A stretch of 64,000 nucleotides of DNA from Eunapius fragilis (Eukaryota > Porifera > Demospongiae > Spongillida > Spongillidae). The stretch spans positions 7,569,118 to 7,633,117 of the forward strand of contig OY811980.1 in NCBI GenBank assembly GCA_963681505.1. The letters run 5' to 3'. Position 1 is the stretch's first letter. Each line of letters starts with the position of its first letter. Of the stretch, positions 4,936-49,159 are shown one piece after another. Under the pieces are notes generated by a model that was given only the letters and a program-made list of their open reading frames with translations, was not told the DNA's origin and did not search any database. The position numbers and the translations under genes are program-made.

Positions 4936-17661
<12,726 letters not shown>

Positions 17662-21841: not shown

Positions 21842-22601
21842 ATGTCGTTCGTAGTCATTACGCTTGTCACTTTGGCCATCTTGGGCACCCGTATCGGTAG
21901 GTTTGACATGGTTACCGTACGTAAAACTGCATTGATCGTGCGGGTAATCCGTAAGCATGAATGCCTTCGCACCTGACCCACACGGTGGTCTGTGGAATGT
22001 TGTCGTTAATATAACTTTCAACAGGTTCCAACGGGCAGACGTGTAACATCAGTCAGAGTGCGCCCGTAAATTCGAGCAGCAGTGTGAGGGAGATCAGGGA
22101 ATTGATTGGCGCCAACATCACGCTCACCTGCGTCTGTGACAACAGCGATGAATTCTGGACTTTGCCGCGAAATACCACTGAAGGCGGTTTCTTGAACATC
22201 TTTTCACTGAGTGCAGCTAATGCAGGGTCGTACACGTGCGATAACGGCAATAAAACGGAGAATGTTACAGTCATCGTTCAAGCAATCAGTAAGCCCTTTC
22301 CAAATCAATTTCATCTCATTCTATTTGTTGCCACCCTCAGATGTTACTGTCTCTCCAACCGCGCCCACAACCGTCATCTATGGTGCCTCATTCTCACTGA
22401 ATTGTTTGCTAAACTTTCAACCATTGGTTGGCAATGCCAGCTACTCATGGCTGGTGAATGGAGCAGTCCTTCCCAATGCTAATGCCAGCGCTCTAAGCAT
22501 CCCCATGGTTACCGTCAGTCATGGAGGCAGTTACAGCTGCCAGGTGCGTCTCCATGGTGTTGCTCTGAGCTCCCAAAGTGGCGTGCTCCTTACTGTTACT
22601 G
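21842..22601 (+). CDS. Gene B signal peptide exon and first two Ig domains
   Basis: The ATG at 21842 opens a hydrophobic leader ([18 protein letters not shown]) of 55 bp, phase 1, like the first exons of genes C and D. Exon 22025-22288 encodes an Ig-like domain (TLTCVCDNS...SYTCDNG). Exon 22341-22601 encodes a second (SLNCLLNF...SYSWLVNGA...SYSCQVRL). Confidence 0.88.
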
Positions 22602-28600: not shown

Positions 28601-31600
28601 GAGGCTGTATGCTTCAAGGTCTCACCAGTGAGGCTGTAGGCTTCAAGGTCTCACCAGTGAGGCTGTAGGCTCAAGGTCTCACCAGTGAGGCTGTAGGCTC
28701 AAGGTCTCACCAGTGAGGCTGTAGGCTCAAGGTCTCACCAGTGAGGCTGTATGCTTCAAGGTCTCACCAGTGAGGCTGTAGGCTTCAAGGTCTCACCAGT
28801 GAGGCTGTAGGCTCAAGGTCTCACCAGTGAGGCTGTAAGCTCAAGGTCTCACCAGTGAGGCTGTAGGCTCAAGGTCTCACCAGTGAGGCTGTAGGCTCAA
28901 GGTCTCACCAGTGAGGCTGTAGGCTTCAAGGTCTCACCAGTGAGGCTGTAGGCTCAAGGTCTCACCAGTGAGGCTGTAAGCTCAAGGTCTCACCAGTGAG
29001 GCTGTAGGCTTCAAGGTCTCACCAGTGAGGCTGTATGCTTCAAGGTCTCACCAGTGAGGCTGTAGGCTTCAAGGTCTCACCAGTGAGGCTGTAGGCTTCA
29101 AGGTCTCACCAGTGAGGCTGTATGCTTCAAGGTCTCACCAGTGAGGCTGTAGGCTTCAAGGTCTCACCAGTGAGGCTGTATGCTTCAAGGTCTCACCAGT
29201 GAGGCTGTAGGCTTCAAGGTCTCACCAGTGAGGCTGTAGGCTTCAAGGTCTCACCAGTGAGGCTGTATGCTTCAAGGTCTCACCAGTGAGGCTGTAGGCT
29301 CAAGGTCTCACCAGTGAGGCTGTAGGCTTCAAGGTCTCACCAGTGAGGCTGTAGGCTTCAAGGTCTCACCAGTGAGGCTGTAGGCTTCAAGGTCTCACCA
29401 GTGAGGCTACACGTGTTCAACAAAGCTGTTGATGTCAGCACCTTACTCACCATTTTGCTGCCCTGGTCCTGCTCCTACCTCTTCAGTTATACTTCCCAGC
29501 ATGTGATAATTCAAATATTAGCAGTAATGGCTCCATTGTGGTCTACTGCTCTGTTGTGATTGGTCTAGTGATAAGGCAGGTTAGCCAATGAATTGATATG
29601 GCACAAAGAGTAACCTCATTCTTCTGTGCTTCCCCCTACTTTGTTTAACATAATGTTTTAATGACATTCATGCATTACCATCTTGTGGTTGTGAAGATAT
29701 ATGAATATAAAATGTGACTTGTAGAGATCACTTTCTCTCTTTGTTACTGTGGGAACAATAATTGTATGGAGATGGACTGTGGGCCTTCTTGCATACAGTC
29801 CATTTTGCTCCTGCATATGTGTGTGTTGTTGTGCAAGTGTTTGTGTGTATGGGGGGGAGGGGAGGGGGGTTGTTACAAGTTTAGGGCCTGAAGTGTGTAC
29901 AGTAACATCTTCTTTGGGTGCAACATTGAAATGTTCAATAACTGATGTCATTGCTATTTCCACCGTCTGTAATACCATTATCTCAATGAGATGTATTCAC
30001 ATACATGTAACATTGTTTTAATTAAAGTCTTGTAGTCATGTGACCTGATCATGTGATTTATTTCCGCAGTGCCTCAGCCAGCGGTCAGTACTAGTACACC
30101 TCAGGTTGCCATAGGAACAACAGCCACCCTTAACTGCACCACCTTTGTTGGTGGTGTCAGTTATCAGTGGACCAAGAACGGCGTGACCCTCACAGATAGT
30201 GGTACTATCAATGGTAGTGCCCAGTCCATTCTGGTCATCACCAGTGTTGGCGTTGTGGATCAGGGTGCATATGTATGTCGTATCTCTGTGGGTGGAGCCA
30301 ACAGTACTTCAAATCCAGTCAACCTTATTATTCTTGGTATGTAATGGTGTGTGTGTGTGTGTGTGTGTGCTTTTGTGTGTGTGTGTGTGTGTGTGTGTTA
30401 GTGCACAGAAGCCAATATCTTCTTTAGGTGTGGAATTTCTGACTGTAGATGTATTCACATAACATTGTTTTAATTTAGTAACGTTTGTAACTTGTAGTCA
30501 TGTGACCTGATCATGTGATTGATTTCCGCAGTGCCTCAGCCAGTGGTCAGTACTAGTACACCTCAGGTTGCCATAGGAACAACAGCTACCCTTAACTGCA
30601 CCACCTCTGTTAGTGGTGTCAGTTATCAGTGGACCAAGAATGGCGTGACCCTCACAGATAGTGGTACTATCAATGGTAGTGCCCAGTCCACTCTGGTCAT
30701 CACCAATGTTGGCGCTGGGGATCAGGGTGCATATGTATGTCAGATCTCTGTGGGTGGAGCCAACAGTACTTCAAATCCAGTCAACCTTACTACTCTTGGT
30801 ATGTGTGTGTGTTAGATGGGATATGAATTTTTATCTTGGTCCAGATAATGACCACACAACAATCGTTTAATAACTATTGATAAGCTCCTTCATGATGGGA
30901 GGGTATGGGTGTGCTCACAGGGATGGCTGTTAGTCCTCATTCAAATTGAGAACTGCTTCACCTCCTCCCCAGGCCCAACTTTTAACATATCCCTCAGTCC
31001 CTCTGTCAACGTCACAGTGAATACAAACCTTTCTCTGGTGTGTGCTGCCTCTTCCCCATCCCCTACCCTGGTGCCCTCCTGGACCATCCCATCAGGTGCA
31101 AATACTACAGGAGGTGCGGTCATTGTCAGCAGTATCCAAGGGGGTGTGGTCACCAGTACCCTCATTGTACCTATTGTGGGTACTGGGGGGAGGGGTGTGT
31201 ATGTCTGTAGCTTCAGCAGTCGACTGCCAGAGGATGGTATCAACAGTTCTACCACGGTTGTTGTATTGAGTAAGTCTGACCATCATCACTAACCACACCT
31301 ACCATCACATCACCCATCATCTCTAACCACACCCACAATAATCATACCCTAACCTTGCCCACCATCACACATTACCCATCATCACTAACCACTCCCACCA
31401 TCACACATTACCCATCATCACTAACCACTCCCACCATCACACATTACCCATCATCACTAACCACTCCCACCATCACACATTACCCATCATCACTAACCAC
31501 TCCCACCATCACACATTACACATCATCACTAACCACTCCCACAATAATCATACCATCATTACTAACCACACCCACCTACCTATACCACAACATTATCACT

Positions 31601-31942
31601 AACCACGCCCACCATTATATCGCCATCCCATATTCAACTTATGTTCCTCCACACCAGGTCCTGCTGCTTTCCCTGCCGATAATACAAACTTTACCACGGC
31701 GACCACAAATGCCACGTTCACCATCATATGTAGTGTGGAACCTGATACACTGCCCGTCCCCTCCATGTCCCTACGGAGGGTGCTAGCCAATGGCACAGCT
31801 GTGGAGCGGAATACAACCATCTCAACATCCATCACCCTCACACTCCAGCCACCATTGCTTAGCGATACAGGTGTTTATGTGTGCTATGCTAATAACTCCC
31901 TTGGCAACGACACCAGACAGCTGAACCTCATAGTCCAAGGTA

Positions 31943-32058: not shown

Positions 32059-32991
32059 CATAATGGCTGGTCTGGGCCACCTGTTATGCGTGCCCCTGGT
32101 TATAGTAGTGATCCCTCCTCCCCAGACAAGCCTGATGCGGTGAACGCCTCCTCCATCACTGGGTCTCTCGTCACCCTCAACCTCATGCGTATCAGCTGGT
32201 CCGCCCCCTCAGGCAACAATGCTCCCATCACCTCCTACACCGTCACCTACTGTGTGGCTGATCCCAACAGCTTGCAGACTCCGTACCAATGTGCCAGTAA
32301 TGCTGCTGTCAACTTGACAATGACAGTGCCAACTGCAGACATCTACCCTCTGACGGCTAACCGCCTCTACAAGGTGACCTTGGTGGCCGTGAACAGTGTG
32401 GGGTCCAGCAATGCTACGGAGTACTTTATGAACACAACCACTTCTGGTGAGTGGAGAGGGGAGGAGGTATGGGGTTGGGTGGAGTGATGGGGAGGGGGAG
32501 AAGGGTGCGGGATTGTGAGGACAGTTAGGGAGAGATTAAGGACAGCGTATGAGGGATGTACAAGTGTATTTAGGCATTAGTATCTCATTCCCCCCCATCC
32601 TCCTCCTCCTCCTCCTCCCCCTCCAGCGGATGCAGCTCCAATCAACTTCACACCCGTCTTTGTTTCACCATCTTACATCATAGTTTCCTGGCTCCTCCCA
32701 CCTCTAAGTGTATTCACATCATCTGATTCACAGTCTGCTGTGCAGTTAAAGTCCTTTTACCTTTCCTATGGACGAGTAGGTGCCACTTCTTATGGATTTC
32801 AGACTGTCTCGTTCAACCAGCTCATGTACCGGCCAAACCAACTGTTGAACGCCACTGTCTCCTTAAGTGGAATTACTATTGGACCTGATGACCGATACAC
32901 CTTATATATGACACTCATATCAAATTATTCATCTCCATCATTAGACAGTACTGCTGCCACAACAAGTACTCAAATTAAACCCCTGAGAGGT

Positions 32992-33029
<38 letters not shown>

Positions 33030-36000
33030 TTATACATACCTCCATCCCATGTAGGTACCAATGCCACCGCTGCCTCTATCAATCCGGCCACTAATATGAC
33101 CACCTTCTCTTGGGACAGTCGTGTTCTCCCCCCCGTCCAGGGATCTTTCATCTCCGTGTTCATATTTCAGTACAACGTCGCCAGTTGGTACCCTGCCCCT
33201 CAGAGGACCCGAAGACAGTCCCCAGCCTCTACCGTGACCTACAATGCCACCACCACCAGCACATCCATCCAGGTCCCTCTCTACCCTTACTCCCTGTACA
33301 CCTACCAGGTCTTTGCCGTGTCACCTGACTTCACCACACCCATCACCGATGTCTCCACCTTCAGTACTCTTAACTATCAGACCGGTGGGTCACGTGACTT
33401 ATTTTGTAGCCCCTCCCTCAACCCCTCCCCCTCTGATTGTTGCTCACAGCTGCTAGTCCACCCCTTTCATTGGTTGCCACTGGTAGCACGTACAGCTCCC
33501 TCTCCATCCAGTGGGCAGTGCCAGCCATGCCCAATGGAAACATTACTGGCTATATAGTGACAGTTGTAAGTGTAGTGTGCTGTGCTCTACAGTTACAGGT
33601 TGTGACAGGTGGTGTGTCATTTACACAAATATAGCTAATTGTGTGTGTTGATTGTATTCAAAGCAGACAAAGAGGCCTGGGTTGGTGGGACAAAGAGGCC
33701 TGGGTTGGTGGTAAAAAGAGGCCTGGGTTGGTGGTACAAAGAGGCCTGGGTTGGTGGGACAAAGAGGCCTGGGTTGGTGGGACAAAGAGGCCTGGGTTGG
33801 TGGTACATGTACAAAGAGGTCTGGGTTGGTGGGACAAAGAGGCCTGGGTTGGTGGGACAAAGAGGCCTGGGTTGGTGGGACAAAGAGGCCTGGGTTGGAG
33901 GTATGACTGGCTCACCTTTTTTTTTTTAAATCTTCCCAGAATAGCACCACTCCCAACACCCAGGTACTCCCCAGTGATAAGTTCTTCACAGCAGTTGTAG
34001 GGGGACTGAGGGGGTACACCTATTACAACGTCACTGTGTCTGCCACAAATGGAGCAGGCCTTGGAGCAGCTGCCCAGCTGATTGCTATCACACCATATGC
34101 TGGTGAGAGAGAGGGAGGGGAGTGATGAGAGAACTAAGAGAGAGGGAGGGAGGGAGTAGTGAGAGAACTAAGAGAGGGAGAGGGGAGTGGTGAGAGAACT
34201 AAGAGAGGGAGGGGAGTGGTGAGAGAACTAAGAGAGGGAGGGAGTGGTGAGAGAACTAAGAGAGAGGGAGGGGAGTGGTGAGAGAACTAAGAGAGGGAGG
34301 GAGTGGTGAGAGAACTAAGAGAGAGGGAGGGGAGTGGTGAGAGAACTAAGAGAGGGAGGGAGTAGTGAGAGAACTAAGAGAGGGAGAGAGGGGAGGGGTG
34401 AGAGAACTAAGAGAGAGGGAGGGGAGTAGTGAGAGAACTAAGAGAGAGGGAGGGGAGTGGTGAGAGAACTAAGAGAGAGGGAGGGGAGTGGTGAGAGAAC
34501 TAAGAGAGAGGGAGGGGAGTAGTGAGAGAACTAAGAGAGAGGGAGGGGAGTGGTGAGAGAACTAAGAGAGAGGGAGGGGAGTGGTGAGAGAACTAAGAGA
34601 GAGGGAGGGGAGTGGTGAGAGAACTAAGAGAGAGGGAGGGGAGTGGTGAGAGAACTAAGAGAGGGAGGGGAGTGGTGAGAGAACTAAGAGAGAGGGAGGG
34701 AGTAGTGAGAGAACTAAGAGAGGGAGGGGAGTAGTGAGAGAACTAAGAGAGAGGGAGGGGAGTGGTGAGAGAACTAAGAGAGAGGGAGGGGAGTAGTGAG
34801 AGAACTAAGAGAGAGGGAGGGGAGTGGTGAGAGAACTAAGAGAGGGAGGGGAGTAGTGAGAGAACTAAGAGAGGGAGAGAGGGGAGGGGTGAGAGAACTA
34901 AGAGAGAGGGAGGGAGTAGTGAGAGAACTAAGAGAGAGGGAGGGGAGTAGTGAGAGAACTAAGAGAGAGGGAGGGGAGTGGTGAGAGAACTAAGAGAGAG
35001 GGAGGGGAGTAGTGAGAGAACTAAGAGAGGGAGGGGAGTAGTGAGAGAACTAAGAGAGAGGGAGGGGAGTGGTGAGAGAACTAAGAGAGAGGGAGGGGAG
35101 TAGTGAGAGAACTAAGTGAGAGGGAGGGGAGTAGTGAGAGAACTAAGAGAGAGGGAGGGGAGTAGTGAGAGAACTAAGAGAGGGAGGGGAGTAGTGAGAG
35201 AACTAAGTGAGAGGGAGGGGAGTGATGAGAGAACTAAGAGAGAGGGAGGGAGTAGTGAGAGAACTAAGAGAGAGGGAGGGGAGTGGTGAGAGAACTAAGA
35301 GAGAGGGAGGGGAGTAGTGAGAGAACTAAGAGAGAGGGAGGGGAGTAGTGAGAGAACTAAGAGAGGGAGGGGAGTAGTGAGAGAACTAAGAGAGAGGGAG
35401 GGGAGTAGTGAGAGAACTAAGAGAGAGGGAGGGGAGTGGTGAGAGAACTAAGAGAGGGAGGGGAGTAGTGAGAGAACTAAGAGAGGGAGAGAGGGGAGGG
35501 GTGAGAGAACTAAGAGAGAGGGAGGGAGTAGTGAGAGAACTAAGAGAGAGGGAGGGGAGTAGTGAGAGAACTAAGAGAGAGGGAGGGGAGTGGTGAGAGA
35601 ACTAAGAGAGAGGGAGGGGAGTAGTGAGAGAACTAAGAGAGGGAGGGGAGTAGTGAGAGAACTAAGAGAGAGGGAGGGGAGTGGTGAGAGAACTAAGAGA
35701 GAGGGAGGGGAGTAGTGAGAGAACTAAGTGAGAGGGAGGGGAGTAGTGAGAGAACTAAGAGAGAGGGAGGGGAGTAGTGAGAGAACTAAGAGAGGGAGGG
35801 GAGTAGTGAGAGAACTAAGTGAGAGGGAGGGGAGTGATGAGAGAACTAAGAGAGAGGGAGGGAGTAGTGAGAGAACTAAGAGAGAGGGAGGGGAGTGGTG
35901 AGAGAACTAAGAGAGAGGGAGGGGAGTAGTGAGAGAACTAAGAGAGAGGGAGGGGAGTAGTGAGAGAACTAAGAGAGGGAGGGGAGTAGTGAGAGAACTA

Positions 36001-37106
36001 AGAGAGGGAGAGAGGGGAGGGGTGAGAGAACTAAGAGAGAGGGAGGGAGTAGTGAGAGAACTAAGAGAGGGAGGGAGTAGTGAGAGAACTAAGAGAGAGG
36101 GAGGGGAGTAGTGAGAGAACTAAGAGAGGGAGAGAGGGGAGTAGTGAGAGAACTAAGAGAGGGAGGGGAGTAGTGAGAGAACTAAGAGAGGGAGAGAGGG
36201 GAGTAGTGAGAGAACTAAGAGAGGGAGGGGAGTGATGAGAGAACTAAGAGAGAGGGAGGGAGTAGTGAGAGAACTAAGAGAGAGGGAGGGGAGTAGTGAG
36301 AGAACTAAGAGGGGGAAGGAGAGAGAAAGGGTTGAGAAAGAGGGAGGTAGCTACTGTATGATACAAGGCTGCTTGATCTTAATTCAAAATGAACATTAAC
36401 CCTTTCTCCTCAGTGTGCCAGCCCACTCTACAGCTCATGAAGAATTATGATCCCTTCGAGGTCAAAATCTCCACCAGTGATTATTGTGGCCCTCTAAGGT
36501 AGGGAAGGGGTGTGGTCTTGTATTGTCTTTTTTTTTTTTTAACACTTGCACATTCACTCCTTGGATACAATCACTATCTCCTTGGATACCAATCACTATC
36601 TCCTTGGATACCAACCACTATCTCCTTGGATACTATCTCCTTGACTGTGGACACATCTCTCAGTTCTGTTGCAGTAATTGTTACAAAGAACTCAAACCCG
36701 CTCAATGTACCGAATTCCAACTTCAAGTACTGGTCATACTGGTCCAGCCAGTCAAAGTTTGACACAGATGGAAATGGCTACTATGTGCTCTACACTGGTG
36801 AAGCTCCTGCTTTAAATGGCACTGTGTCCTTTACGTTCTCAAAGACAGCTCTCCCGCGCACCTATGGAGGGGTAAATTATTCTGTTGTTGCCCCTGAATC
36901 TTCAGGAACATACTACCTTGTGGCATATCTGTACTCCAGGGTGGTAGGTCTATTCCATTTATTGCACATCAAGCTTGGTTACTCTTAATAATTTCCAGGA
37001 CCAGGTCACGTTTCAAAAAAGCATCAGTATATCATTCAGTAAGATAATTCTGTTCATGTTATGGTATATAATTAACAATGGCACCGCTCTGTTGATTGCT
37101 GATATG

Positions 37107-37280: not shown

Positions 37281-39231
37281 AGCGATCCCGATCCCTACAC
37301 CTGTGAATGATGTTCAGGGTATAATCATTGGTGTGGTGGCGAGCATAGCCATCCTTCTCCTCATCATCTTCCTGGTACTGCTCTTCTTGGCCATCTTGTG
37401 AGTCATCCCCCCCACCCCCTAGGCTGGCTGCATGTGCAGGTGACTCCATCTGGTGTTGCCTAGACAACCATGATTGCTTACTTGTTACTTGGGTTGCCCA
37501 GGCAACTGAATTGCTACTAGTTGTAAATAAGAAATTTATGTGTATGTGTTCCTAGGAAAGCTGTGATACTTTTGGGGGTGTGGTTTGGGTTTGCAGCCTT
37601 CGTAGACCCAGAGTTAAACGGAGCCATGACCTAACTCATACCAATGGAGATGGAGGGAAGGCTCATGGTGGAGAGGTGGAGCTGAAGAGAAGAACCAAGA
37701 TCTTAAGTGAGTTCCCCTAAGTCTAGTAGTGTACTACAATATCCTATGCAAATACAACAATATCCTATGCAAATGCATCACGTGATCATGTGTGTGTATA
37801 AGCCTCATGTACATTTATACATGGTACATCACATGACCTTATACACGACATTCAGGGTTTCAAAAACCTCAGGGGGGGGGGGGGGGGGTGAAGGTTCAGT
37901 TTGTACTTTTTAGAGGGCGGTACATTTTTCCTTGAGTGTCGTGCCACGCTTGAACTAAGGGCTGACAAAGTAGTAGTCTTAGAAATCTGGACGAGGTGGG
38001 AAGTCCCATATGAAGAGGTGGGGAGTCCCATATGAAGAGGTGGGGAGTGTGCCTTCTTCCATATGAAGAGGTGGGGAGTGTGCCTTCTTCCATATGAAGA
38101 GGTGGGGAGTGTGCCTTCTCCCATATGAAGAGGTGGGGAGTGTGCCTTCTTCCATATGAAGAGGTGGGGAGTGTGCCTTCTTCCATATGAAGAGGTGGGG
38201 AGTGTGCCTTCTTCCATATGAAGAGGTGGGGAGTGTGCCTTCTTCCATATGAAGAGGTGGGGAGTGTGCCTTCTCCCATATGAAGAGGTGGGGAGTGTGC
38301 CTTCTTCCATATGAAGAGGTGGGGAGTGTGCCTTCTTCCATATGAAGAGGTGGGGAGTGTGCCTTCTCCCGCATGAAGAGGTGGGGAGTGTGCCTTCTTC
38401 CATATGAAGAGGTGGGGAGTGTGCCTTCTTCCATATGAAGAGGTGGGGAGTGTGCCTTCTCCCATATGAAGAGGTGGGGAGTGTGCCTTCTCCCATATGA
38501 AGAGGTGGGGAGTGTGCCTTCTCCCGCATGAAGAGGTGGGGAGTGTGCCTTCTTCCATATGAAGAGGTGGGGAGTGTGCCTTCTCCCATATGAAGAGGTG
38601 GGGAGTGTGCCTTCTCCCATATGAAGAGGTGGGGAGTGTGCCTTCTCCCATATGAAGAGGTGGGGAGTGTGCCTTCTTCCATATGAAGAGGTGGGGAGTG
38701 TGCCTTCTCCCATATGAAGAGGTGGGGAGTGTGCCTTCTCCCATATGAAGAGGTGGGGAGTGTGCCTTCTCCCATATGAAGAGGTGGGGAGTGTGCCTTC
38801 TTCCATATGAAGAGGTGGGGAGTGTGCCTTCTCCCATATGAAGAGGTGGGGAGTGTGCCTTCTTCCGTATGAAGAGGTGGGGAGTGTGCCTTCTTCCATA
38901 TGAAGAGGTGGGGAGTGTGCCTTCTTCCATATGAAGAGGTGGGGAGTGTGCCTTCTTCCATATGAAGAGGTGGGGAGTGTGCCTTCTTCCATATGAAGAG
39001 GTGGGGAGTGTGCCTTCTCCCATATGAAGAGGTGGGGAGTGTGCCTTCTCCCATATGAAGAGGTGGGGAGTGTGCCTTCTCCCACATGAAGCTTGAAAAT
39101 GTTTTTGGATGCATGTAAAGAAAAAGTAACACTCGTGGTTTTGAAGAAAAAAATTTAATACTTAACCACCACCCCTGCCCCTCCCCTCCATGAAACCCTG
39201 GATCACATATATGTGCATAACACACCTTGTG

Positions 39232-39309
<78 letters not shown>

Positions 39310-41247
39310 CCCAACCTGACTGTTGGGTCGACAGACGTGTTCACCTCTGCTGGGCAGCCTACCACGCTTGTCTGTGAGGTATCCGGAACTCCGCCCCCTG
39401 AGGTGACATGGGAGAGGGTGGGGGTGAAGGAGAAGGTGCAGGGGGAGGGGGCACAGCTGCTGGAGAAGTGTGAGGAACAGTCTCTGGACAAGCAACGCTT
39501 TTTGAAGCTGTCTGACAACTCTCTCTTCATCATGGATACTGACCTCCAGGATGAGGGTGTTTACGTTGTCAAGGCTACCAATCCTGGTGGGGTGGCTGAA
39601 GGAACTGTTAAGGTCACAGTAACCAGACCAGTACCACCTGAGCGTAAGTGTGGGAGTGGTCTAATGGGCGTGGCACTTCCTGTCTGTGACCTATGCAAGG
39701 TGATGCGTTGTGTTCATGTTATTCCCATGGGTATGAGGCAATATGACCAAATATGGGCATTTTCACATGTTGATGGTACAGTGTTGTTTGTGTGTGTAAC
39801 CAGGATGTGACCTGTGTAATCAGGATGTGACCAGGTTGTAACAAGCTGTGAACTTTTCTCTCCTCCCCCTCCCTATCAGCTGACTGTGAACACCCCTCCA
39901 TTCCTGTGGACAGCTTCACTGAAAGGATCGCCATGTTGAGGAATGACAATGGAGCTGGCTTGGAGGATGAGTATGCGGTGAGTGTAGGGAGAGGGGAGGA
40001 GGGAAGGGAGACATTTTAAGGTCATTCCTCCATTAGGATGTTGAGCTGGAATGGAACTTCACTAGTTACGCTGCAAACATCAATGTTAACAAGAGCAAGA
40101 ATCGCTATGTCAACATTATTCCTTGTAAGGTCATGGGTACTTGTAGGGCGGGGCTTATGGCTCGTCTCTATGGCTACAGATGACCATTCCAGAGTTGTTC
40201 TACCTCTGCAAGACAACACGCTTGGATCAGACTACATTAACTCATCCTTCATAGATGTGAGGGCATAGAAGGGGTTAATAGAGAGAAGGGGGTGGGGGTA
40301 AGGAGGAAAAGGTAAAGGAATGAAAGGGGTTTATAGACAGAAGAGATTAAGGAGGAAAAAGTAAAGGAATGGAAGGGGTTAATAGAGAGAAGGGGTTAAG
40401 GAATGGAAGGGGCAAATGGCTCTAGAGAAGGGGTTAAGGAGGAAAAGGTAAAGGAATGGAAGGGGTTAATAGAGAAATAACACTATGGGTGCAGAGGCTG
40501 GTTTCCAGTCCATGATGTGCTTAGGAATGTTACATATGTGAGGGTGAGGATAGTTGTGATAGAGAAAAGGTGATCCAAGGGCACCCCTTACCCCATTATT
40601 CAAGGGTACCCCCTACCCCATTATTCAAGGGTACCCCCTACCCCATTATTCAAGGGTACCCCTTACCCCATTATTCAAAGGGTACCCCCTACCCCATTAT
40701 CCAAGGGTACCCCCTACCCCATTATCCAAGGGCACCCCCTACCCCATTATTCAAGGGCACCCCCTACCCCATTATCCAAGGGCACCCCCTTACCCATTAT
40801 CCAAGGGCACCCCCTACCCCATTATCCAAGGGTACCCCTTACCCCATTATCCAAGGGTACCCCTTACCCCATTATCCAAGGGTACCCCCTACCCCATTAT
40901 CCAAGGGTACCCCCTACCCCATTATCCAAGGGTACCCCCTACCCCATTATCCAAGGGTACCCCCTACCCCATTATCCAAGGGTACCCCCTACCCCATTAT
41001 CCAAGGGTACCCCCTACCCCATTATCCAAGGGTATCCCCTACCCCATTATTCCCTCCTCTCTTATATGTTTAGGGTTACAACAAGACTAACTGTTATATA
41101 GCCACCCAAGGTCCCATGCCTTCCACCTTTGCTGACTTCTGGAGGATGGTATGGGAATTTGACTGTCCAACCATCATCATGGTAACAAACCTCCAGGAGG
41201 AAGACAAGGTAAGCAGAAGTAGGCACATTACTATTGACTCCACCCCA

Positions 41248-41303
<56 letters not shown>

Positions 41304-42313
41304 CAAATGCCACCAGTACTGGCCTGCCTATGGATCAACCACCTATGGCCACCTCAAGGTCACTCTGAAGGAGGTGGAGAACTTGGCTGAATACAGCATC
41401 CGCACGTTCAGCGTCACTCCGGTCAGTGACCCTCCTCCCCAGTCCTATCCTCCCGGTCCCCCTCGCCAGTCCTATCCTCCCGGTCCCCCTCCCCAGTCCT
41501 ATCCTCCTGGTCCCCCTCCCCAGTCCTATCCTCCCGGTCCCCCTCCCCTTCATTACCCCCTCCCCCCTCCCCCAGATATCAGGCCAGAGTCGCTCCCCCA
41601 TGCCCGTGAGGGAGGTGAGGCAGTTCCACTTCCTGGTGTGGCCGGACCACGGTGTACCCCAGTACGCCACTGCTCTGCTCAGCTTCAGGAAGAGGATCAC
41701 CAAGTACCACCCCACCAACAGGGGTCCTATGGTGGTCCATTGCAGGTGTGCGGACTGGGGAGGAGGGAGTGCACTCATTAGCAATGTTCAGTAGCAGGCT
41801 GTGTGATTGTCATGGCCCCACCTTGGGGGTGTGGCTTGTAGTTGGCTCCTGATTGTCATGGCCCCACCTTGGGGGTGTGGCTTGTAGTTGGCTCCTGATT
41901 GTCACAGCCCCACCTTGGGGGTGTGGCTTGTAGTTGTCTCCTGATTGTCACGGCCCCACCTTGGGGGTGTGGCTTGTAGTTGTCTCCTGATTGTCACAGC
42001 CCCACCTTGGGGGTGTGGCTTGTAGTTGCATACATGTTGCAGTGGTTTGTACTGCAGTAGGTGTGGCTGTACAAAAAGCATAACTATCACCCCCTCCCTC
42101 CCCTCACCCAGTGCTGGTGTGGGAAGGACTGGTACGTTCATCTGCATAGACTACGTTCTGAAGCAGATAGAGGGAGAAGCCATTGTTGACATCTTCAACT
42201 TTGTGCGTCACATGCGTTACAGAAGGAACTACATGGTCCAGACCTCCGTGAGTGGTCTGGGGAGGAGGGGATGACCAGGGGGGTGACACAAAGGGCATGG
42301 AAAGAGACAGCAT

Positions 42314-42372
<59 letters not shown>

Positions 42373-45300
42373 CACATACACACATGCACATACACATGCG
42401 CATACATACATGCACATACACGCATGCACACACCTTCAATGACACAGGCTCAGTATATATTCATTCACGACGCCATCTTGGAGTCAGTGATGTGTGGGGA
42501 CACCTCCATCCCGGCCTCTGAGCTCAAGGATCGCATGGTGGCCATGAAGGAGATGGACCCTGAGGCACAGAGGATGAAGATTGAGGTCCAGTTTGAGGTA
42601 AGAGTAGGGGACTATGGAGGTAAGGGCTGGGGATCATAAAGGTAAGGGCTGGGGACTATGGAGCTAAGGGCTGGGGACCATATAGGTAAGGGCTGGGGAC
42701 TGAAGGTAAGGGCTGGGGTATAACACATAGTGGCAGCAAGTTGGATGGACCCATGGGTGTGTATCAAGTAGTAGTTTATTTTTGACACTACCTTTTATGG
42801 TAAGTGCTATTTATAACTACCTTGGGTTATGCAGCAACAAGATTAGTGGTGTCTTACAACTGTCATGTTTTCTTTGAACAAAGTTGGCACCTATTTGTTG
42901 ACGATATCCTTTGATGGGCACTAATTGAGCTTATTAGCTGCCCTATGGAGGAACCCACTCCCCACGCCTCCATCATCCATATTTACACACCATCCCCATG
43001 GCTATGGTGTGTTACAATATCAGCTCTGAAGTGCTGTTGTGTTGCGTGGATATGTAGAGATGATGATCTTGATTTTGTGGGTCATTTATTTCAACCCATG
43101 GTGTTTCATAGGTTATCTATAATCTTGATTCATGGGGGTCATTTATCCTACTATGATCTTATATATTTGGGGTTGTGGCAGTGAAAAGGGATCTAGCACA
43201 TATAAAATTTTCCAGGAAGGAACTTCAAAGTTGACATGTGCAATTAAAATGTACGCGTAATTACAAATTCAGGCCACTATAACTCCATGATGGACAGACT
43301 AATTTCCAGTGTGTAAGAAAGAAGTTGTAGAGGACATAGGTGTCTCATGTCTCATTACCCTCACGTCTCATTACCCTCATGTCTCATTACCCTCATGTTT
43401 CATTACCCTCATGTCTCATTACCCTCATGTCTCATTACCCTCATGTCTCATTACCCGCATGTCTCATTACCCTCATGTCTCATTACCCTCATGTCTCATT
43501 ACCCTCACGTCTCATTACCCTCACGTCTCATTACCCTCACGTCTCATTACCCTCACGTCTCATTACCCTCACGTCTCATTACCCTCATGTCTCATTACCC
43601 TCACGTCTCATTACCCTCACGTCTCATTACCCTCACGTCTCATTACCCTCACGTCTCATTACCCTCACGTCTCATTACCCTCACGTCTCATTACCCTCAC
43701 GTCTCATTACCCTCACGTCTCATTACCCTCACGTCTCATTACCCTCACGTCTCATTACCCTCACGTCTCATTACCCTCACGTCTCATTACCCGCATGTCT
43801 CATTACCCTCACGTCTCATTACCCGCATGTCTCATTACCCTCACGTCTCATTACCCGCATGTCTCATTACCCTCATGCCTCATTACCCTCATGTTTCATT
43901 ACCCTCATGTTTCATTACCCTCATGTCTCATTACCCTCATGTCTCATTACCCTCATGTTTCATTACCCTCACACCCTCATGTCTCATTACCCTCCCCTCA
44001 TGCCTCATCACCATCATGTCTCATTACCCACATGTCTCATTACCCTCATGTCTCATTACCCTCACACCCTCATGTCTCATTACCCTCATACCTCATTACC
44101 CTCATGTCTCATTACCCTCATGTCTCATTACCCTCATGTCTCATTACCCTCACACCCTCATGTCTCATTACCCTCATACCTCATTACCCTCATGTCTCAT
44201 TACCCTCATGTCTCATCACCCTCATGTCTCATTACCCACATGTCTCATTACCCTCATGTCTCATTACCCTCACACCCTCATGTCTCATTACCCTCATGCC
44301 TCATTACCCTCATGCCTCATTACCCTCATGTCTCATTACCCTCATGTCTCATTACCCTCATGTCTCATTACCCTCACGTCTCATTACCCTCACGTCTCAT
44401 TACCCTCACGTCTCATTACCCTCACGTCTCATTACCCTCATGTCTCATTACCCTCACGTCTCATTACCCTCACGTCTCATTACCCTCACGTCTCATTACC
44501 CTCACGTCTCATTACCCTCATGTCTCATTACCCTCACGTCTCATTACCCTCACGTCTCATTACCCTCACGTCTCATTACCCTCACGTCTCATTACCCTCA
44601 CGTCTCATTACCCTCACGTCTCATTACCCTCATGTCTCATTACCCTCACGTCTCATTACCCTCACGTCTCATTACCCTCACGTCTCATTACCCTCACGTC
44701 TCATTACCCTCACGTCTCATTACCCGCATGTCTCATTACCCTCATGCCTCATTACCCTCATGTTTCATTACCCTCATGTTTCATTACCCTCATGTCTCAT
44801 TACCCTCATGTCTCATTACCCTCATGTTTCATTACCCTCACACCCTCATGTCTCATTACCCTCCCCTCATGCCTCATCACCATCATGTCTCATTACCCAC
44901 ATGTCTCATTACCCTCATGTCTCATTACCCTCACACCCTCATGTCTCATTACCCTCATACCTCATTACCCTCATGTCTCATTACCCTCATGTCTCATTAC
45001 CCTCATGTCTCATTACCCTCACACCCTCATGTCTCATTACCCTCATACCTCATTACCCTCATGTCTCATTACCCTCATGTCTCATCACCCTCATGTCTCA
45101 TTACCCACATGTCTCATTACCCTCATGTCTCATTACCCTCACACCCTCATGTCTCATTACCCTCATGCCTCATTACCCTCATGCCTCATTACCCTCATGT
45201 CTCATTACCCTCATGTCTCATTACCCTCATGTCTCATTACCCTCACGTCTCATTACCCTCACGTCTCATTACCCTCACGTCTCATTACCCTCACGTCTCA

Positions 45301-47754
45301 TTACCCTCATGTCTCATTACCCTCACGTCTCATTACCCTCACGTCTCATTACCCTCACGTCTCATTACCCTCACGTCTCATTACCCTCATGTCTCATTAC
45401 CCTCACGTCTCATTACCCTCACGTCTCATTACCCTCACGTCTCATTACCCTCACGTCTCATTACCCTCACGTCTCATTACCCTCACGTCTCATTACCCTC
45501 ATGTCTCATTACCCTCACGTCTCATTACCCTCACGTCTCATTACCCTCACGTCTCATTACCCTCACGTCTCATTACCCTCACGTCTCATTACCCTCACGT
45601 CTCATTACCCTCACGTCTCATTACCCTCACGTCTCATTACCCTCACGTCTCATTACCCTCACGTCTCATTACCCTCACGTCTCATTACCCTCACGTCTCA
45701 TTACCCGCATGTCTCATTACCCTCACGTCTCATTACCCGCATGTCTCATTACCCTCACGTCTCATTACCCGCATGTCTCATTACCCTCATGCCTCATTAC
45801 CCTCATGTTTCATTACCCTCATGTTTCATTACCCTCATGTCTCATTACCCTCATGTCTCATTACCCTCATGTTTCATTACCCTCACACCCTCATGTCTCA
45901 TTACCCTCCCCTCATGCCTCATCACCATCATGTCTCATTACCCACATGTCTCATTACCCTCATGTCTCATTACCCTCACACCCTCATGTCTCATTACCCT
46001 CATACCTCATTACCCTCATGTCTCATTACCCTCATGTCTCATTACCCTCATGTCTCATTACCCTCACACCCTCATGTCTCATTACCCTCATACCTCATTA
46101 CCCTCATGTCTCATTACCCTCATGTCTCATCACCCTCATGTCTCATTACCCACATGTCTCATTACCCTCATGTCTCATTACCCTCACACCCTCATGTCTC
46201 ATTACCCTCATGCCTCATTACCCTCATGCCTCATTACCCTCATGTCTCATTACCCTCATGTCTCATTACCCTCATGTCTCAATACCCACATGTCTCATTA
46301 CCCTCATGTCTCATTACCCTCATGTCTCATCACCCTCATGTCTCATTACCCACATGTCTCATTACCCTCATGTCTCATTACCCTCACACCCTCATGTCTC
46401 ATCACCCTCATGTCTCATTACCCTCATGTTTCATTACCCTCATGTCTCATCACCCTCATGTCTCATTACCCTTATGTCACCCTCATGTTTCATTACCCTC
46501 ATGTCTGGTAACAAGCCTTCCATCAGCTGTCACACGTAAAGGATGCTCAAATGGTTTCAGTGTTCTTAGTGTGCTCAATTGATGATAGAAGTGTGTTACT
46601 ATGATCTTGATTCTGTTGGGCCATTATTTCAACTTACTTTTATCATACCTTTGAAGCTTATATGACGCATCAGAAAACCAATAATAAATCCATCCCCCCA
46701 CCAAGGCAGTTATTAATAGATGTCATTAATAGTCCCTCCCACTTCCAGAGGTGTAGGCAGCAATCAATACCTTTTATCCTGTCAGTCTAAATACCTCCTA
46801 ATTTGCCTAATGAAAATTTTTATCTCAGCCACCGTACATGTGTCATGGGTATGTGCAGCTAAACATGTAGCTATAGCAACACCACAGGCCCAGACCTCTG
46901 GGCCTGGGCCTCACTTACATATCACTGGCCAACTTTTTTGTCTGATAGTCTTTGCACCTTTGCCATGGCAACCGTTCTTGCAATGACAGTCACCCTGGCT
47001 AGGCGACATATTGGGGTGTTGGGGGGGAGAGGGAGGTATTGAGGGTTGAGAGAGGCTCCCACACAAACTGTGACACAGACCAGCTGTGTGTGTGTACAGA
47101 TGTGGTGAGATGTGGTGTGTACAAACCAGCTGTGTACACATGCTAATGTTACCTGATGACTTTCAGGGGCCGCACCCCACATTCTCCAGGGCCCTAGTGT
47201 GACCTTGTATGGCTGCTCTTGGCAAGCTGGCCAGGGTATGTTTTTCATTCCGTCTTTAAAGTTTTTTGTTTCCTAGAACTTCACAGCTTCACTAGGGGGT
47301 TTTCAGTGTAGGTGTTTACAACCTATCTGTGATGTGTATGGCAAGCAGCTGTCTGCTATCCCATACAGTTCTGTGGGATCTTCCCTCTACATGTACATAT
47401 CTTAGCTATGTTGTGGCAAAGGATAATCTGTGTTGTGTGTTGTGTTGTGTGTGTGTGGTGTATAACATCTTGGAGGTTCATTTGCATCACACACATTGTA
47501 TATTGTTCTCATCCCCAGACCCTGAACACTGCCTCTCCCATGGATAAGGACTTTGAGTGTTCCATAGCTGAACTCCCTGACAACCAAAAGAAGAACCGTT
47601 TTGACGTCCATCTCCCATGTGAGTCTGGGGACTAATGTTGTGTTGGTGTCATGTGACCCTCTGCTTCTGTATCATCCAGCCAATAACTTCAGAGTCGCCC
47701 TATCAGGAGATAAGAACCAGTCTGACTACATTTGTGCCAGCTTCCTGGATGTAA

Positions 47755-47798
<44 letters not shown>

Positions 47799-49159
47799 CA
47801 CTTACTGTCCTTCATACCTCCATCTTTGCCATGCACACACACACACACACCATCACCTCAGGGTTATCGTCAGAGGAGTGCCTTCATCATCACCCAGGCA
47901 CCCATGAAAGATACAGTAGGAGACTTCTGGAGGATGATATGGGAACACAAGTCTGCTGCCATAGTGATGTTGGCACAGCTGGTGGAAGATGGGAAGGTGT
48001 GTGAGGTGGGAGGGAGTAGGTAAACAGATCTCCCATGTGGTTATGGAGGAGTTACCTAAACCACAATGTTCACATACCTCTGGTGGTATTGATTTCACCT
48101 ATCTCTTTGCTCAGTCTCCTTCCACACCTGTTGTTTCCTTATAAGGAATCCCTCCAGTGCTCATCCCCAGTCCACCCCTCATCCCCATCCCACCCTGCAG
48201 GAGGTCTGTGCACGTTACTGGCCAGAGGAGCTGAACCACGCAGAGGTGTTTGGGAAGTACCAGGTTGAGAAGAGCACAGCTGACCGTAACGAAGGCACCT
48301 ATGTCATCAGGAAGTTCAAGATATGCTCACTTGATAATGTAGGTGGTCCCATTAACCCTTTGTGTACTACTACCTCCACCCCTTCCTACCTCCACCCTCC
48401 CCTCTCACCCCTCACCTCCCTCCCGCAGCCCCAGGACAACAGGATTGTCACACAGTTCCACTACATGATGTGGCCTAACCGTGCCGCTCCTGAGAGCACC
48501 AAGTCTGTAGTGGAGCTCATCGATGAGCTGCAGCGCGTGCAGCGAAAGTCTGGGAATGGACCAATCACAGTTCACTGCCAGTGGGTGGCTGTTGTTGTTG
48601 TGTTGGGGGAAGCATGGGAATAGTGTAGGTAGTTATTCATGGCAGCCTACTAGTTATTTCATAGTAGGCTAGGTATTCATAGTAGGGTAGTTATATTCAT
48701 AGGGGGTAGTTGTAGTGGGGGTGGGCTGTATTGCTGAGGTGGGGAGGAATGGATGAAAGTGAAGTTATTCCTTTAAGCTTTCATTGTGCATAAGACTACA
48801 TTGTCTACAACTGGTGTGGGCCAGCCCAAGGGGGTTAGCCATTTGATCACCTCTCTGTCTCACAGTGATGGGATTGGTCGCACTGGGACCTTCTGTGCAG
48901 CGTACTCCATGATGGACAGAGTCAAGGTGGAGCAGGTGGTTGATGCCTTCCAGACTATAAAGTCCATGAGAATACAGCGTGCCGGCCTTCTGGACTCACT
49001 GGTTCGTTCTCCCCCTCTGCTAAATCACTTTATGTCTTCACCTCCTCCCCACTCCTTTCCCGCCCCGCCCCCTTCCACCCCCAGGCGCAGTACGTTTTCC
49101 TTCATTCTGCTCTCCTTGAATTCCTGAGCACTTTCGATGCATATCAGAACTTTAAATAA
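21842..49159 (+). CDS. Gene B: RPTP with six extracellular Ig, four FN3 and one intracellular Ig domain
   Basis: Complete 33-exon model, 1,910 residues. Exons: 21842-21896, 22025-22288, 22341-22601, 30070-30336, 30532-30798, 30973-31269, 31658-31939, 32126-32446, 32627-32989, 33055-33384, 33450-33565, 33940-34102, 36414-36498, 36664-36943, 36999-37038, 37283-37397, 37597-37706, 39308-39643, 39880-39977, 40037-40124, 40180-40256, 41074-41208, 41302-41421, 41576-41745, 42112-42247, 42448-42597, 47519-47618, 47680-47750, 47862-47996, 48201-48338, 48429-48580, 48866-49001, 49085-49159. Phases agree at every join. Residues: signal 1-18, Ig 19-564, FN3 565-995, membrane-proximal 996-1130, TM about 1144-1168, cytoplasmic Ig 1206-1317, D1 1318-1642, D2 1643-1910. 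Weakest joins: the donor at 36943 and the donor after 49001 (GTTCGT). It lies between gene A (same strand) and gene C (convergent). Confidence 0.9.
23394..24568. mobile_element. Degenerate DNA transposon with inverted ends and TTAA flanks
   Basis: The left end (TGTCTTGCGGTCC ... ACGGGATTAACCC) reappears inverted at the right end (GGGTTAATCCCG ... GGACTGCAAGACA). TTAA stands at both borders (23390-23393 and 24569-24572), as expected for a TTAA target duplication. The interior carries a 125-codon minus frame at 23580-23957 and a short acidic plus-strand stretch near 24200-24290. Neither is recognisable as a transposase. Confidence 0.6.
24848..25240. repeat. About 26-bp minisatellite
   Basis: About 15 copies of GTACCCCCCAGTGTAATGAT followed by CTGTAG, 24-26 bp each, in gene B intron 3. 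Confidence 0.92.
25343..25450. repeat. 31-bp tandem repeat, about 3.5 copies
   Basis: GGTTGCCAGGATATGG followed by TATTGAGGTGTGGCT, repeated without change until the last partial copy. Confidence 0.9.
25541..26398. repeat. 26-bp minisatellite
   Basis: About 33 copies of TCTCCCTATGGAGGCCTCAT plus GTCCTG, with T/C and tat/tac variants. All three plus-strand frames are open through the array; this is not coding. Confidence 0.95.
26522..26760. repeat. 26-bp minisatellite, about 9 copies
   Basis: Unit GGCCAATCCATACAGGGAGA plus GCCTCT, with two shortened copies near 26565-26620. Confidence 0.93.
27213..27366. repeat. Short tandem array of a TGGTCCTCCATCATCAGACA unit
   Basis: Six copies of a roughly 24-bp unit, three of them followed by a GATCTACA insertion. 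Confidence 0.88.
27361..29408. repeat. 28/29-bp minisatellite, about 2 kb
   Basis: About 70 copies of AGGTCTCACCAGTGAGGCTG plus TAGGCTCA or TAGGCTTCA. Variant order (TAGGC, TATGC, TAAGC) repeats on a scale of about 0.9 kb, so higher-order duplications have occurred. There are no unique spacers, so it is not a CRISPR array. Confidence 0.95.
30070..31939 (+). CDS. Gene B Ig domains 3 to 6
   Basis: Four phase-1 exons: 30070-30336, 30532-30798, 30973-31269 and 31658-31939. The first two (both [20 protein letters not shown]) are nearly identical and the introns before them share a TGTGACCTGATCATGTGATT block. They are a recent tandem exon duplication. All carry N-glycosylation sequons. The last has CSVEPD...VYVCYANNS, a typical Ig F-strand. 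Confidence 0.88.
31361..31560. repeat. 36-bp tandem repeat in a gene B intron
   Basis: About 5-6 copies of CATCATCACTAACCACTCCC plus ACCATCACACATTACC. A GT/CA microsatellite at 31947-32056 lies in the next intron. Confidence 0.9.
32126..34102 (+). CDS. Gene B FN3 domains 1 to 4
   Basis: Exons 32126-32446, 32627-32989, 33055-33384, and a split fourth domain on 33450-33565 plus 33940-34102. FN3 signatures include [20 protein letters not shown] and NNYTV-like strands ending in [10 protein letters not shown] and [12 protein letters not shown]3-2 and FN3-3 are more divergent. FN3-3 contains an RTRR furin-type site at 33204-33215. The split intron (33566-33939) holds a 23-bp minisatellite. Confidence 0.82.
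33663..33905. repeat. 23-bp minisatellite
   Basis: About ten copies of CAAAGAGGCCTGGGTTGGTG plus GGA or GTA in the intron splitting FN3-4 of gene B. Confidence 0.93.
34105..36325. repeat. About 26-30-bp purine-rich minisatellite with higher-order repeats
   Basis: About 80 copies of GTGAGAGAACTAAGAGAGAG plus GGAGGGGAGTG/A. The block from 34796 is repeated at 35408 (offset 612 bp) with identical translation, and a shortened third copy lies near 35929. It is entirely purine-skewed on this strand and starts within three bases of the donor at 34103. Confidence 0.95.
36414..37038 (+). CDS. Gene B membrane-proximal domain
   Basis: Exons 36414-36498, 36664-36943 and 36999-37038 encode about 135 residues with no clear family match, ending in a beta-rich stretch ([10 protein letters not shown], then [13 protein letters not shown]). 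The position matches the membrane-proximal region of RPTPs. The 40-bp exon restores the phase between its neighbours and has a good acceptor (TTTCCAG) and donor (GTAAGA). Confidence 0.7.
37110..37276. repeat. CT microsatellite ahead of the gene B transmembrane exon
   Basis: Almost pure (CT)n ending six bases before the GTATAG acceptor of the TM exon, so it supplies the polypyrimidine tract. Confidence 0.95.
37283..37706 (+). CDS. Gene B transmembrane exon and juxtamembrane exon
   Basis: Exon 37283-37397 encodes a proline-rich stalk and a hydrophobic segment of about 25 residues ([20 protein letters not shown] then LFLAIL). Exon 37597-37706 starts [12 protein letters not shown], a strongly basic stop-transfer, and continues with charged sequence. 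There is no second hydrophobic segment downstream, so everything after this point is cytoplasmic. Confidence 0.88.
37853..39200. mobile_element. MITE-like element expanded by an internal minisatellite
   Basis: CAGGGTTTCA at 37853-37862 is matched by TGAAACCCTG at 39191-39200, each followed inwards by a G-rich (C-rich on the right) stretch. Between them sits the 31-bp minisatellite at 37996-39085. The ends resemble a common MITE terminus; the link between the two ends is inferred. Confidence 0.5.
37996..39085. repeat. 31-bp minisatellite
   Basis: About 35 copies of CATATGAAGAGGTGGGGAGT plus GTGCCTTCTTC/CC. Open minus-strand frames of 368-457 codons through it are artefacts of the unit. Confidence 0.95.
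39235..39306. repeat. CA microsatellite forming the acceptor region of the intracellular Ig exon
   Basis: Pure (CA)n running directly into CAG|GTCCCAACC, the 3' splice site of exon 39308-39643. Other CA/GT tracts in gene B are at 31947-32056, 32991-33028, 41252-41301, 42318-42370 and 47757-47797. Confidence 0.95.
39308..39643 (+). CDS. Gene B intracellular Ig (I-set) domain
   Basis: One 336-bp exon, phase 1 at both ends. I-set features in order: [13 protein letters not shown] (B strand), TPPPEVTWE (C strand Trp), a long charged C-D insertion, [20 protein letters not shown] (E-F strands) and [15 protein letters not shown] (G strand). The F-strand cysteine is Val (VYVVKA). It follows the TM and basic juxtamembrane exons and precedes PTP D1, so it must be cytoplasmic. 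The function is unknown; docking or dimerisation is possible. Confidence 0.88.
39880..42597 (+). CDS. Gene B PTP domain 1 (predicted active)
   Basis: Eight exons. Motifs: [67 protein letters not shown] (Asp about 1514) and [13 protein letters not shown] (Cys about 1546, Arg about 1552), split by an intron after HC-AG, then NYMVQTS and [12 protein letters not shown]. All catalytic residues are canonical. The ATQ|G intron of genes A and C is missing. Confidence 0.9.
40270..41050. repeat. Two minisatellites in a gene B D1 intron
   Basis: 40270-40470 has several copies of a GGAATGGAAGGGGTTAATAG-type unit. 40570-41050 has about 20 copies of a 25-bp unit, AAGGGTACCCCCTACCCCAT plus TATCC. Confidence 0.92.
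41430..41545. repeat. About 25-bp tandem repeat in a gene B intron
   Basis: Four to five copies of CCCCAGTCCTATCCTCCCGG plus TCCCC between the donor at 41422 and the acceptor at 41575. Confidence 0.9.
41790..42035. repeat. About 46-bp tandem repeat, five copies
   Basis: Unit contains CCCCACCTTGGGGGTGTGGC and TTGTAGTTGTCTCCTGATTGTCA, in the intron that splits the D1 catalytic loop. A further short GGTAAGGGCTGGGGACTAT repeat lies at 42598-42716. Confidence 0.9.
43330..46505. repeat. 16-bp minisatellite, 3.2 kb, in the gene B D1-D2 intron
   Basis: About 200 copies of TCTCATTACCCTCACG/ATG. All three plus frames stay open for over 1,050 codons because the unit has no stop in this direction. A marker variant (CCTCCCCTCATGCCTCATCA) occurs near 43991, 44860 and 45906, showing three large higher-order blocks. 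Sequence before it (43200-43320) resembles the interior of the MITE at 60318. Confidence 0.95.
47519..49159 (+). CDS. Gene B PTP domain 2 (probably inactive or weak)
   Basis: Seven exons. Motifs: [55 protein letters not shown] (WPD Asp is Asn, about 1807), [12 protein letters not shown] (Cys about 1840 and Arg kept) and [14 protein letters not shown]. It ends at TAA 49157-49159. Exon sizes 135, 152 and 136 equal those of gene C D2. Confidence 0.88.

Follow-up and report, generated by a model that had tools for sequence, protein, structure and literature searches.

Immunoglobulin (Ig) domains of receptor protein tyrosine phosphatases (RPTPs) are known as outer, ligand-binding parts of these receptors. 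A gene of the sponge Eunapius fragilis raises the question of whether such a domain can also reside inside the cell, between the transmembrane (TM) segment and the first phosphatase domain (D1). This gene, here called gene B, lies together with two further RPTP genes, A and C, in a window of 64,000 nucleotides (assembly GCA_963681505.1, contig OY811980.1, positions 7,569,118 to 7,633,117). The first-pass annotation of the window had proposed a new RPTP architecture for gene B, with TM, basic stop-transfer, I-set Ig and D1 exons joined in phase.

Gene B and its segment between membrane and phosphatase

The gene B model comprises 33 exons on the plus strand (21842-49159) and 1910 aa, and runs from a signal-like N terminus through six Ig exons, FN3-like exons and one TM to the inner Ig, D1 and D2. 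The 5′ part (21842..22601) holds the N-terminal hydrophobic, signal-like exon (21842-21896, in-phase GT-AG model) and Ig exons 1 and 2 (22025-22288 and 22341-22601); Ig exons 3-6 follow within 30070..31939 (30070-30336, 30532-30798, 30973-31269 and 31658-31939), each with two cysteines and three to six sequons. Four of the six outer Ig exons pass the Pfam cut-off, the second matching Ig_2 at E 1.2e-9, while the first (weak, E 1.7e-3) and 30973-31269 fall below it. The neighbouring exons 30070-30336 and 30532-30798 are almost identical and are read as a recent exon duplication; the N terminus of the related Ephydatia muelleri protein carries four near-identical Igs. The FN3-like exons occupy 32126..34102 (32126-32446, 32627-32989, 33055-33384, 33450-33565 and 33940-34102), and the fn3 cut-off was passed by one of the four exons scanned, the first (E 6.5e-9), with 33450-33565 not scanned alone. 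Three phase-consistent membrane-proximal exons complete the ectodomain (36414..37038: 36414-36498, 36664-36943 and 36999-37038); the last, of 40 nt, precedes the TM exon and accommodates extra residues of the E. muelleri protein, which match there.

On the other side of the TM, D1 continues over seven exons (40037..42597: 40037-40124, 40180-40256, 41074-41208, 41302-41421, 41576-41745, 42112-42247 and 42448-42597) and D2 spans a further seven (47519..49159: 47519-47618, 47680-47750, 47862-47996, 48201-48338, 48429-48580, 48866-49001 and 49085-49159), with a PF00102 match over D1-D2 at E 6.2e-161. D1 has WPDHGVP and the P-loop HCSAGVGR (HCX5R); in D2, WPN replaces WPD and the P-loop reads CHDGIGR. 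From these family features we presume that only D1 is likely to be active, and that D2 is probably weak or inactive. With its predicted ectodomain, one TM and a D1 with WPD and HCX5R loops, gene B is a predicted sponge RPTP gene. Its introns contain long minisatellite arrays (25541-26397, 27365-29408, 34106-36311, 38028-39091 and 43344-46506) with periods of 26, 29, 31, 31 and 16 and up to ~204 copies.

The segment in question is encoded by four exons, which are exact to the base and GT-AG bounded: a TM exon (37283..37397), a stop-transfer or juxtamembrane exon that starts LRRPRVKR and holds 10 K+R (37597..37706), the Ig exon (39308..39643) and the start of the D1 wedge (39880..39977). All acceptors are AG, the donors are GTGAGT, GTGAGT, GTAAGT and GTGAGT in order, and when the exons are joined one phase is open, with many stops in the other two. 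The order is thus one TM, RRPRVKR, I-set Ig, D1 wedge and intact D1, and coordinates, splice sites, open frame and Pfam all agree with the first-pass reading of this segment. The claim that no further hydrophobic segment follows the TM also stands, as a hydropathy scan of gene B finds one TM, with a best 19-mer mean of 3.64, the next-best stretch being the N-terminal signal-like one at 1.88.

The Ig exon itself has 336 nt, or 112 codons, with phase 1 introns on both sides. In hmmscan against Pfam the TM-to-wedge segment matches I-set at E 2.2e-13, and the score of 50.5 bits against a cut-off of 23.7 means that the match is not due to chance. A structure prediction, which the first-pass annotation had called for, returns an Ig beta-sandwich (AlphaFold2, five aligned sequences, mean pLDDT 83.4, pTM 0.73). 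Strand B retains its Cys and strand F (YVVKA) is without one. A short, Pro-rich linker, identical in Ephydatia, leads to the wedge, of which the first 33 residues are all identical in Ephydatia (33/33); we take the sequence after the Ig to be the usual start of an RPTP D1.

The host gene is known here from genomic DNA alone, and the Ig exon could on that account be an annotation artefact, a relic or an exon from elsewhere, with the mature receptor passing from TM directly to PTP. Such a reading has to contend with the open frame, the matching phases and the consensus donors, with the occurrence of this domain, in an equivalent position, in proteins predicted for other sponges and with the stop-free Ig exons of gene C-type copies described below, and is very unlikely. 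The architecture TM-Ig-D1 is, on the evidence of the sequence, very probably real.

The side of the membrane

The position of the inner Ig after the TM predicts a cytosolic location, and several properties of the protein are in keeping with it. The 1151 aa that precede the gene B TM contain 42 sequons, versus 6 in the 734 aa beyond it (Fisher p 6.7e-5). In the inner Ig exon 27 of 112 residues are charged and there is one sequon, compared with 1-12 charged residues of 87-99 and three to six sequons in the six outer Ig exons. Both cysteines of the classical B/F pair are found in all seven outer Igs examined in genes B and C versus only one of nine post-TM Igs, that of Corticium candelabrum, and the inner Igs of gene B and Ephydatia keep only the B-strand Cys of the pair. 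Loss of the B/F pair in eight of nine post-TM Igs would be fitting for domains in the cytosol. According to a proposal cited in PMC5766482, only 40% of the I-band Igs of titin have the classical B-F pair; a cytosolic Ig may thus normally be without it, and the Corticium Ig, which has the pair, could still be cytosolic.

An extracellular gene B Ig would require that the annotated TM is unused. We found no support for this, and it is at odds with the TM hydropathy of 3.64 followed by RRPRVKR, with the lack of any other strong TM candidate in the model, with the fall in sequon density across the TM and with the fact that PTP domains work in the cytosol; we consider it extremely unlikely. Post-TM place, sequons, charge and lost cysteines together are fitting for a gene B Ig located in the cytosol, between the stop-transfer sequence and the D1 wedge.

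Recurrence in sponges and in the E. fragilis genome

A search with gene B residues 1157-1345 retrieved one protein, E. muelleri EMCRGX_G018961, which is 80% identical over 99% of the query. By exon, computed on a 1898-aa version of the gene B model, identity to Ephydatia is 78% in the Ig, 58% in the TM exon, 65% in the juxtamembrane exon, 86% in wedge plus D1 (a lower bound for D1, two exons of which are garbled in the Ephydatia model) and 91% in D2; for the 13 ectodomain exons in which 28 or more residues align, it is 32-67%.

A wider search with D1-D2 gave 7985 matches, of which the best 120 were compared; many of these are isoforms of one another. Five of the 120 carry an Ig between TM and D1: the Ephydatia protein, two from Dysidea avara, a JGI protein and one from Corticium candelabrum. 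Their TM-D1 gaps measure 159-210 aa. All five have an I-set match in Pfam, as do, above cut-off, all nine post-TM Igs scanned. In the other 115 (many isoforms, two without a name and none named as a sponge protein) TM and D1 are 77-110 aa apart, with no Ig between them, in line, for the best 120 of 7985, with the first-pass statement that no family with an Ig at this place was known; rarer Ig-bearing RPTPs lower down would escape this comparison. Its Ig profile was built partly from post-TM Igs; the positives were confirmed by Pfam and the negatives also rest on the short gap. A search with the Dysidea Ig region was swamped by hemicentin and obscurin, and PF00102 was present in one of its 19 matches, the query itself.

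The JGI protein has 1634 aa and its longest contig 6677 bases; with so little space for introns, the contig may be transcript-derived. The predicted Corticium protein starts with D1-D2 and continues with Ig, FN3, TM, Ig and again D1-D2; the annotation has probably merged two adjacent RPTP genes here. The public entries (a Dysidea RPTP S-like and an uncharacterized protein, a Corticium RPTP S-like protein and EMCRGX_G018961) share the TM-Ig-D1-D2 layout of gene B and are named by similarity, the inner Ig being absent from the names seen. The search of sponge proteins that the first-pass annotation had suggested reveals a wider occurrence of TM-Ig-PTP than it held, in Ephydatia, Dysidea, JGI and Corticium proteins. 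Its new architecture turns out to be a real layout that is conserved across sponge lineages, and no description of TM-Ig-PTP was found in the literature searched.

Most of the non-sponge matches listed are LAR-type proteins, ~44-46% identical over D1-D2. LAR or type R2A RPTPs (PTPRF, PTPRS, PTPRD and Drosophila Lar) resemble gene B in their Ig and FN3 ectodomain, one TM and tandem D1-D2; unlike them, gene B has an Ig between TM and D1, a feature of none of the 115 other matches among the best 120 of 7985.

The exon of 336 nt with phase 1-1 boundaries could be skipped in frame, and alternative splicing might switch a docking site on or off. About 70 bases of CA repeat, with no pyrimidine tract, precede its acceptor (39238-39307) and are possibly relevant to regulated splicing, and the representative of the Dysidea cluster is named 'isoform X2'. 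The listed Ephydatia, Dysidea and JGI proteins, on the other hand, include the Ig, with no skipped form among them. Regulated inclusion, which would be compatible with the explanation preferred below, seems unlikely.

Within the genome, gene B at first appeared to be single-copy, its own Ig retrieving itself and one distant outer Ig. This was abandoned when the match in gene C and a search with the gene C Ig showed others; the gene B Ig is too divergent as a query, and so the other members had been missed. TM, Ig and PTP occur in this order at 18 loci: gene B, 15 gene C-type copies on contig C10 (a count that includes gene C itself), one on C16 and one on C17. Locus counts from the gene C Ig search are lower bounds, and seven further matches on C7, C8 and C1 (E 4.1e-6 to 6.9e-4) stand outside the 18. 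In all 17 loci besides gene B the Ig is followed on its own strand, at a distance of 443-1423 bases, by a PF00102 exon match. A TM-like segment lies ahead of the Ig, again on that strand, in all 15 C-type loci as well as in the C16 and C17 genes; these TM segments derive from hydropathy or tblastn on unspliced DNA rather than from full gene models. One C-type copy (L029/L049), with a damaged TM and a shortened Ig, is probably decayed. Contig C10 also bears a very large RPTP array, mainly at 6.98-8.2 Mb, and of 192 exon-level PF00102 matches in the genome most among those listed are on C10.

Gene C, on the minus strand, follows the order TM (approximately 54104..54304), RRRENG stop-transfer, exons with VTYEAV, VTYEVV and LQYLNI, an Ig-plus-wedge exon and D1. 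Its post-TM I-set Ig and wedge form a single exon (52563..52954, I-set E 3.2e-16); the Ig has neither classical cysteine, and AlphaFold predicts an Ig followed by two helices (pLDDT 85.4). The three motifs between TM and Ig (53032-54060, minus strand) have related counterparts in several other C-type copies, and fit an ITIM-like (V/L)xYxx(V/I) pattern. Twelve Ig exons were translated from the 15 C-type copies and none contains a stop; in these 12 copies the Ig half has a pN/pS of 0.64, which is indicative of weak constraint at low divergence.

Other relatives seem to do without the domain. Gene A (12780..13462, plus strand) has a TM near 12808 and an exon at ~12926-13462 that runs from the juxtamembrane part into the wedge, and its TM-to-wedge segment shows no inner Ig and no Pfam family. 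Copies of the gene B D1, 56-82% identical, are present at C12:5271644-5275091, C9:3331309-3333033 and C1:21493263-21493690; on C12 there are three in tandem, and several matches contain stops, which makes pseudogenes or partial duplicates likely. The C9 and C1 paralogs each have an outer-type Ig, with both cysteines and with sequons, as the last one ahead of D1; right after it comes a TM-like run of Val that a GTG repeat would encode (L011 near 5742 and L013 near 7299, both minus strand). This stretch is their only TM candidate, an uncertain one; no Ig was seen between it and D1, and an inner Ig is probably missing from both paralogs.

An inner Ig could persist as a passive spacer, an exon shuffled into a phase 1 intron and kept as folding and harmless, with no partner. 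Shuffled Ig exons are usually marked by phase 1-1 symmetry, which the gene B Ig exon shows; gene A and probably the C9 and C1 paralogs lack the domain, which seems dispensable in these related receptors, and constraint on the 12 C-type copies is weak. A mere spacer is harder to reconcile with the identity of the gene B Ig to Ephydatia, which exceeds that of every measurable ectodomain exon (78% versus at most 67%), and with the persistence of the layout in Ephydatia, Dysidea, the JGI sequence and Corticium, and we regard it as rather unlikely. By its sequence, gene B belongs to a group of sponge RPTPs with an inner Ig.

Origin and possible function of the inner Ig

The first-pass annotation likened the inner Ig to those of titin or obscurin, a view that holds in part. 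In an Ig tree of 49 domains, a small one, the B-type post-TM Igs (gene B, Ephydatia, both Dysidea proteins and JGI) form a clade with support of 100 and are sister to the Igs of one obscurin (99). Being without the cysteine pair, the B-type agrees with the likeness; its kinship with obscurin Igs, coming from one small tree, is a lead only. The likeness does not extend to the C-type clade (gene C, C16 and C17; 90), which lies near outer sponge Igs (67), nor to the Corticium Ig, which stands apart from both clades. Foldseek gives the titin M10-obscurin-like 1 complex as best match of the inner Ig (E 1.6e-7), but the fold comparison ties with extracellular Igs and does not tell I-set domains of the cytosol from those of the cell surface.

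The D1 tree without C17 unites gene B, Ephydatia, both Dysidea proteins, JGI and the C9 and C1 paralogs (97), and the inner Ig was probably lost or replaced in these two paralogs. The D1s of gene C and C16 pair with a support of 99, and gene A is closest to them (68); the C17 D1 was included in the first tree and dropped from the second as a long branch. Sponge D1s come together with a support of only 62, and deeper splits, including the relation to bilaterian LAR, are weak. The intron before the Ig is in phase 1 in gene B and is read as phase 1 from the sequence of gene C and C16, and in C17 the Ig and the juxtamembrane part seem to lie in a single exon. The post-TM Igs, of three kinds, are not united in a single clade, so that several origins are possible; one gain followed by losses and divergence would fit, and so would independent gains at one position.

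Order, phase, the single TM, conservation and recurrence are direct readings of the sequence, beyond which we infer a rigid interaction module. The inner Ig would be a cytosolic protein-interaction module mounted on the D1 wedge, to which the short Pro-rich linker would tie it. Binding of a partner, or of the Ig of another receptor, would determine how D1 is spaced and oriented relative to the membrane and would control clustering or substrate reach. The model comes from titin, obscurin-like 1 and myomesin, whose cytosolic Igs pair with partners; the Igs of these proteins, of myotilin and of MLCK have the I-set fold of the gene B inner Ig.

A study of RPTP-gamma describes an 86-residue TM-D1 linker as part of a dimerization model that requires this linker to be flexible (PMC2638020); gene B, by contrast, has a folded Ig in that place. 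The same source indicates that the role of the wedge in RPTP dimer control is disputed. By analogy with the cytosolic Igs named above, a docking or clustering function of the inner Ig appears plausible, if somewhat short of probable. Taken as a whole, the statement that gene B is a sponge RPTP with a cytosolic I-set Ig serving as a rigid interaction module is one to which we attach reasonable, not high, confidence. More tentative still is the extension to a sponge RPTP class, spanning at least demosponges and Homoscleromorpha and represented here by 18 loci, in which a wedge-mounted cytosolic Ig would regulate the phosphatase by way of a partner or of the inner Ig of another receptor.

TM-Ig-PTP is a variant of the RPTP, undescribed in the literature searched, and not a new kind of enzyme. 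An Ig inside the cell and beside the wedge offers a natural way to test how the structure next to the membrane governs phosphatase activity. An early animal lineage has built receptor signalling from a combination that is absent in the 115 other receptors compared and, if the proposed function holds true, Ig recognition inside the cell would have been part of receptor signalling early in animal history.
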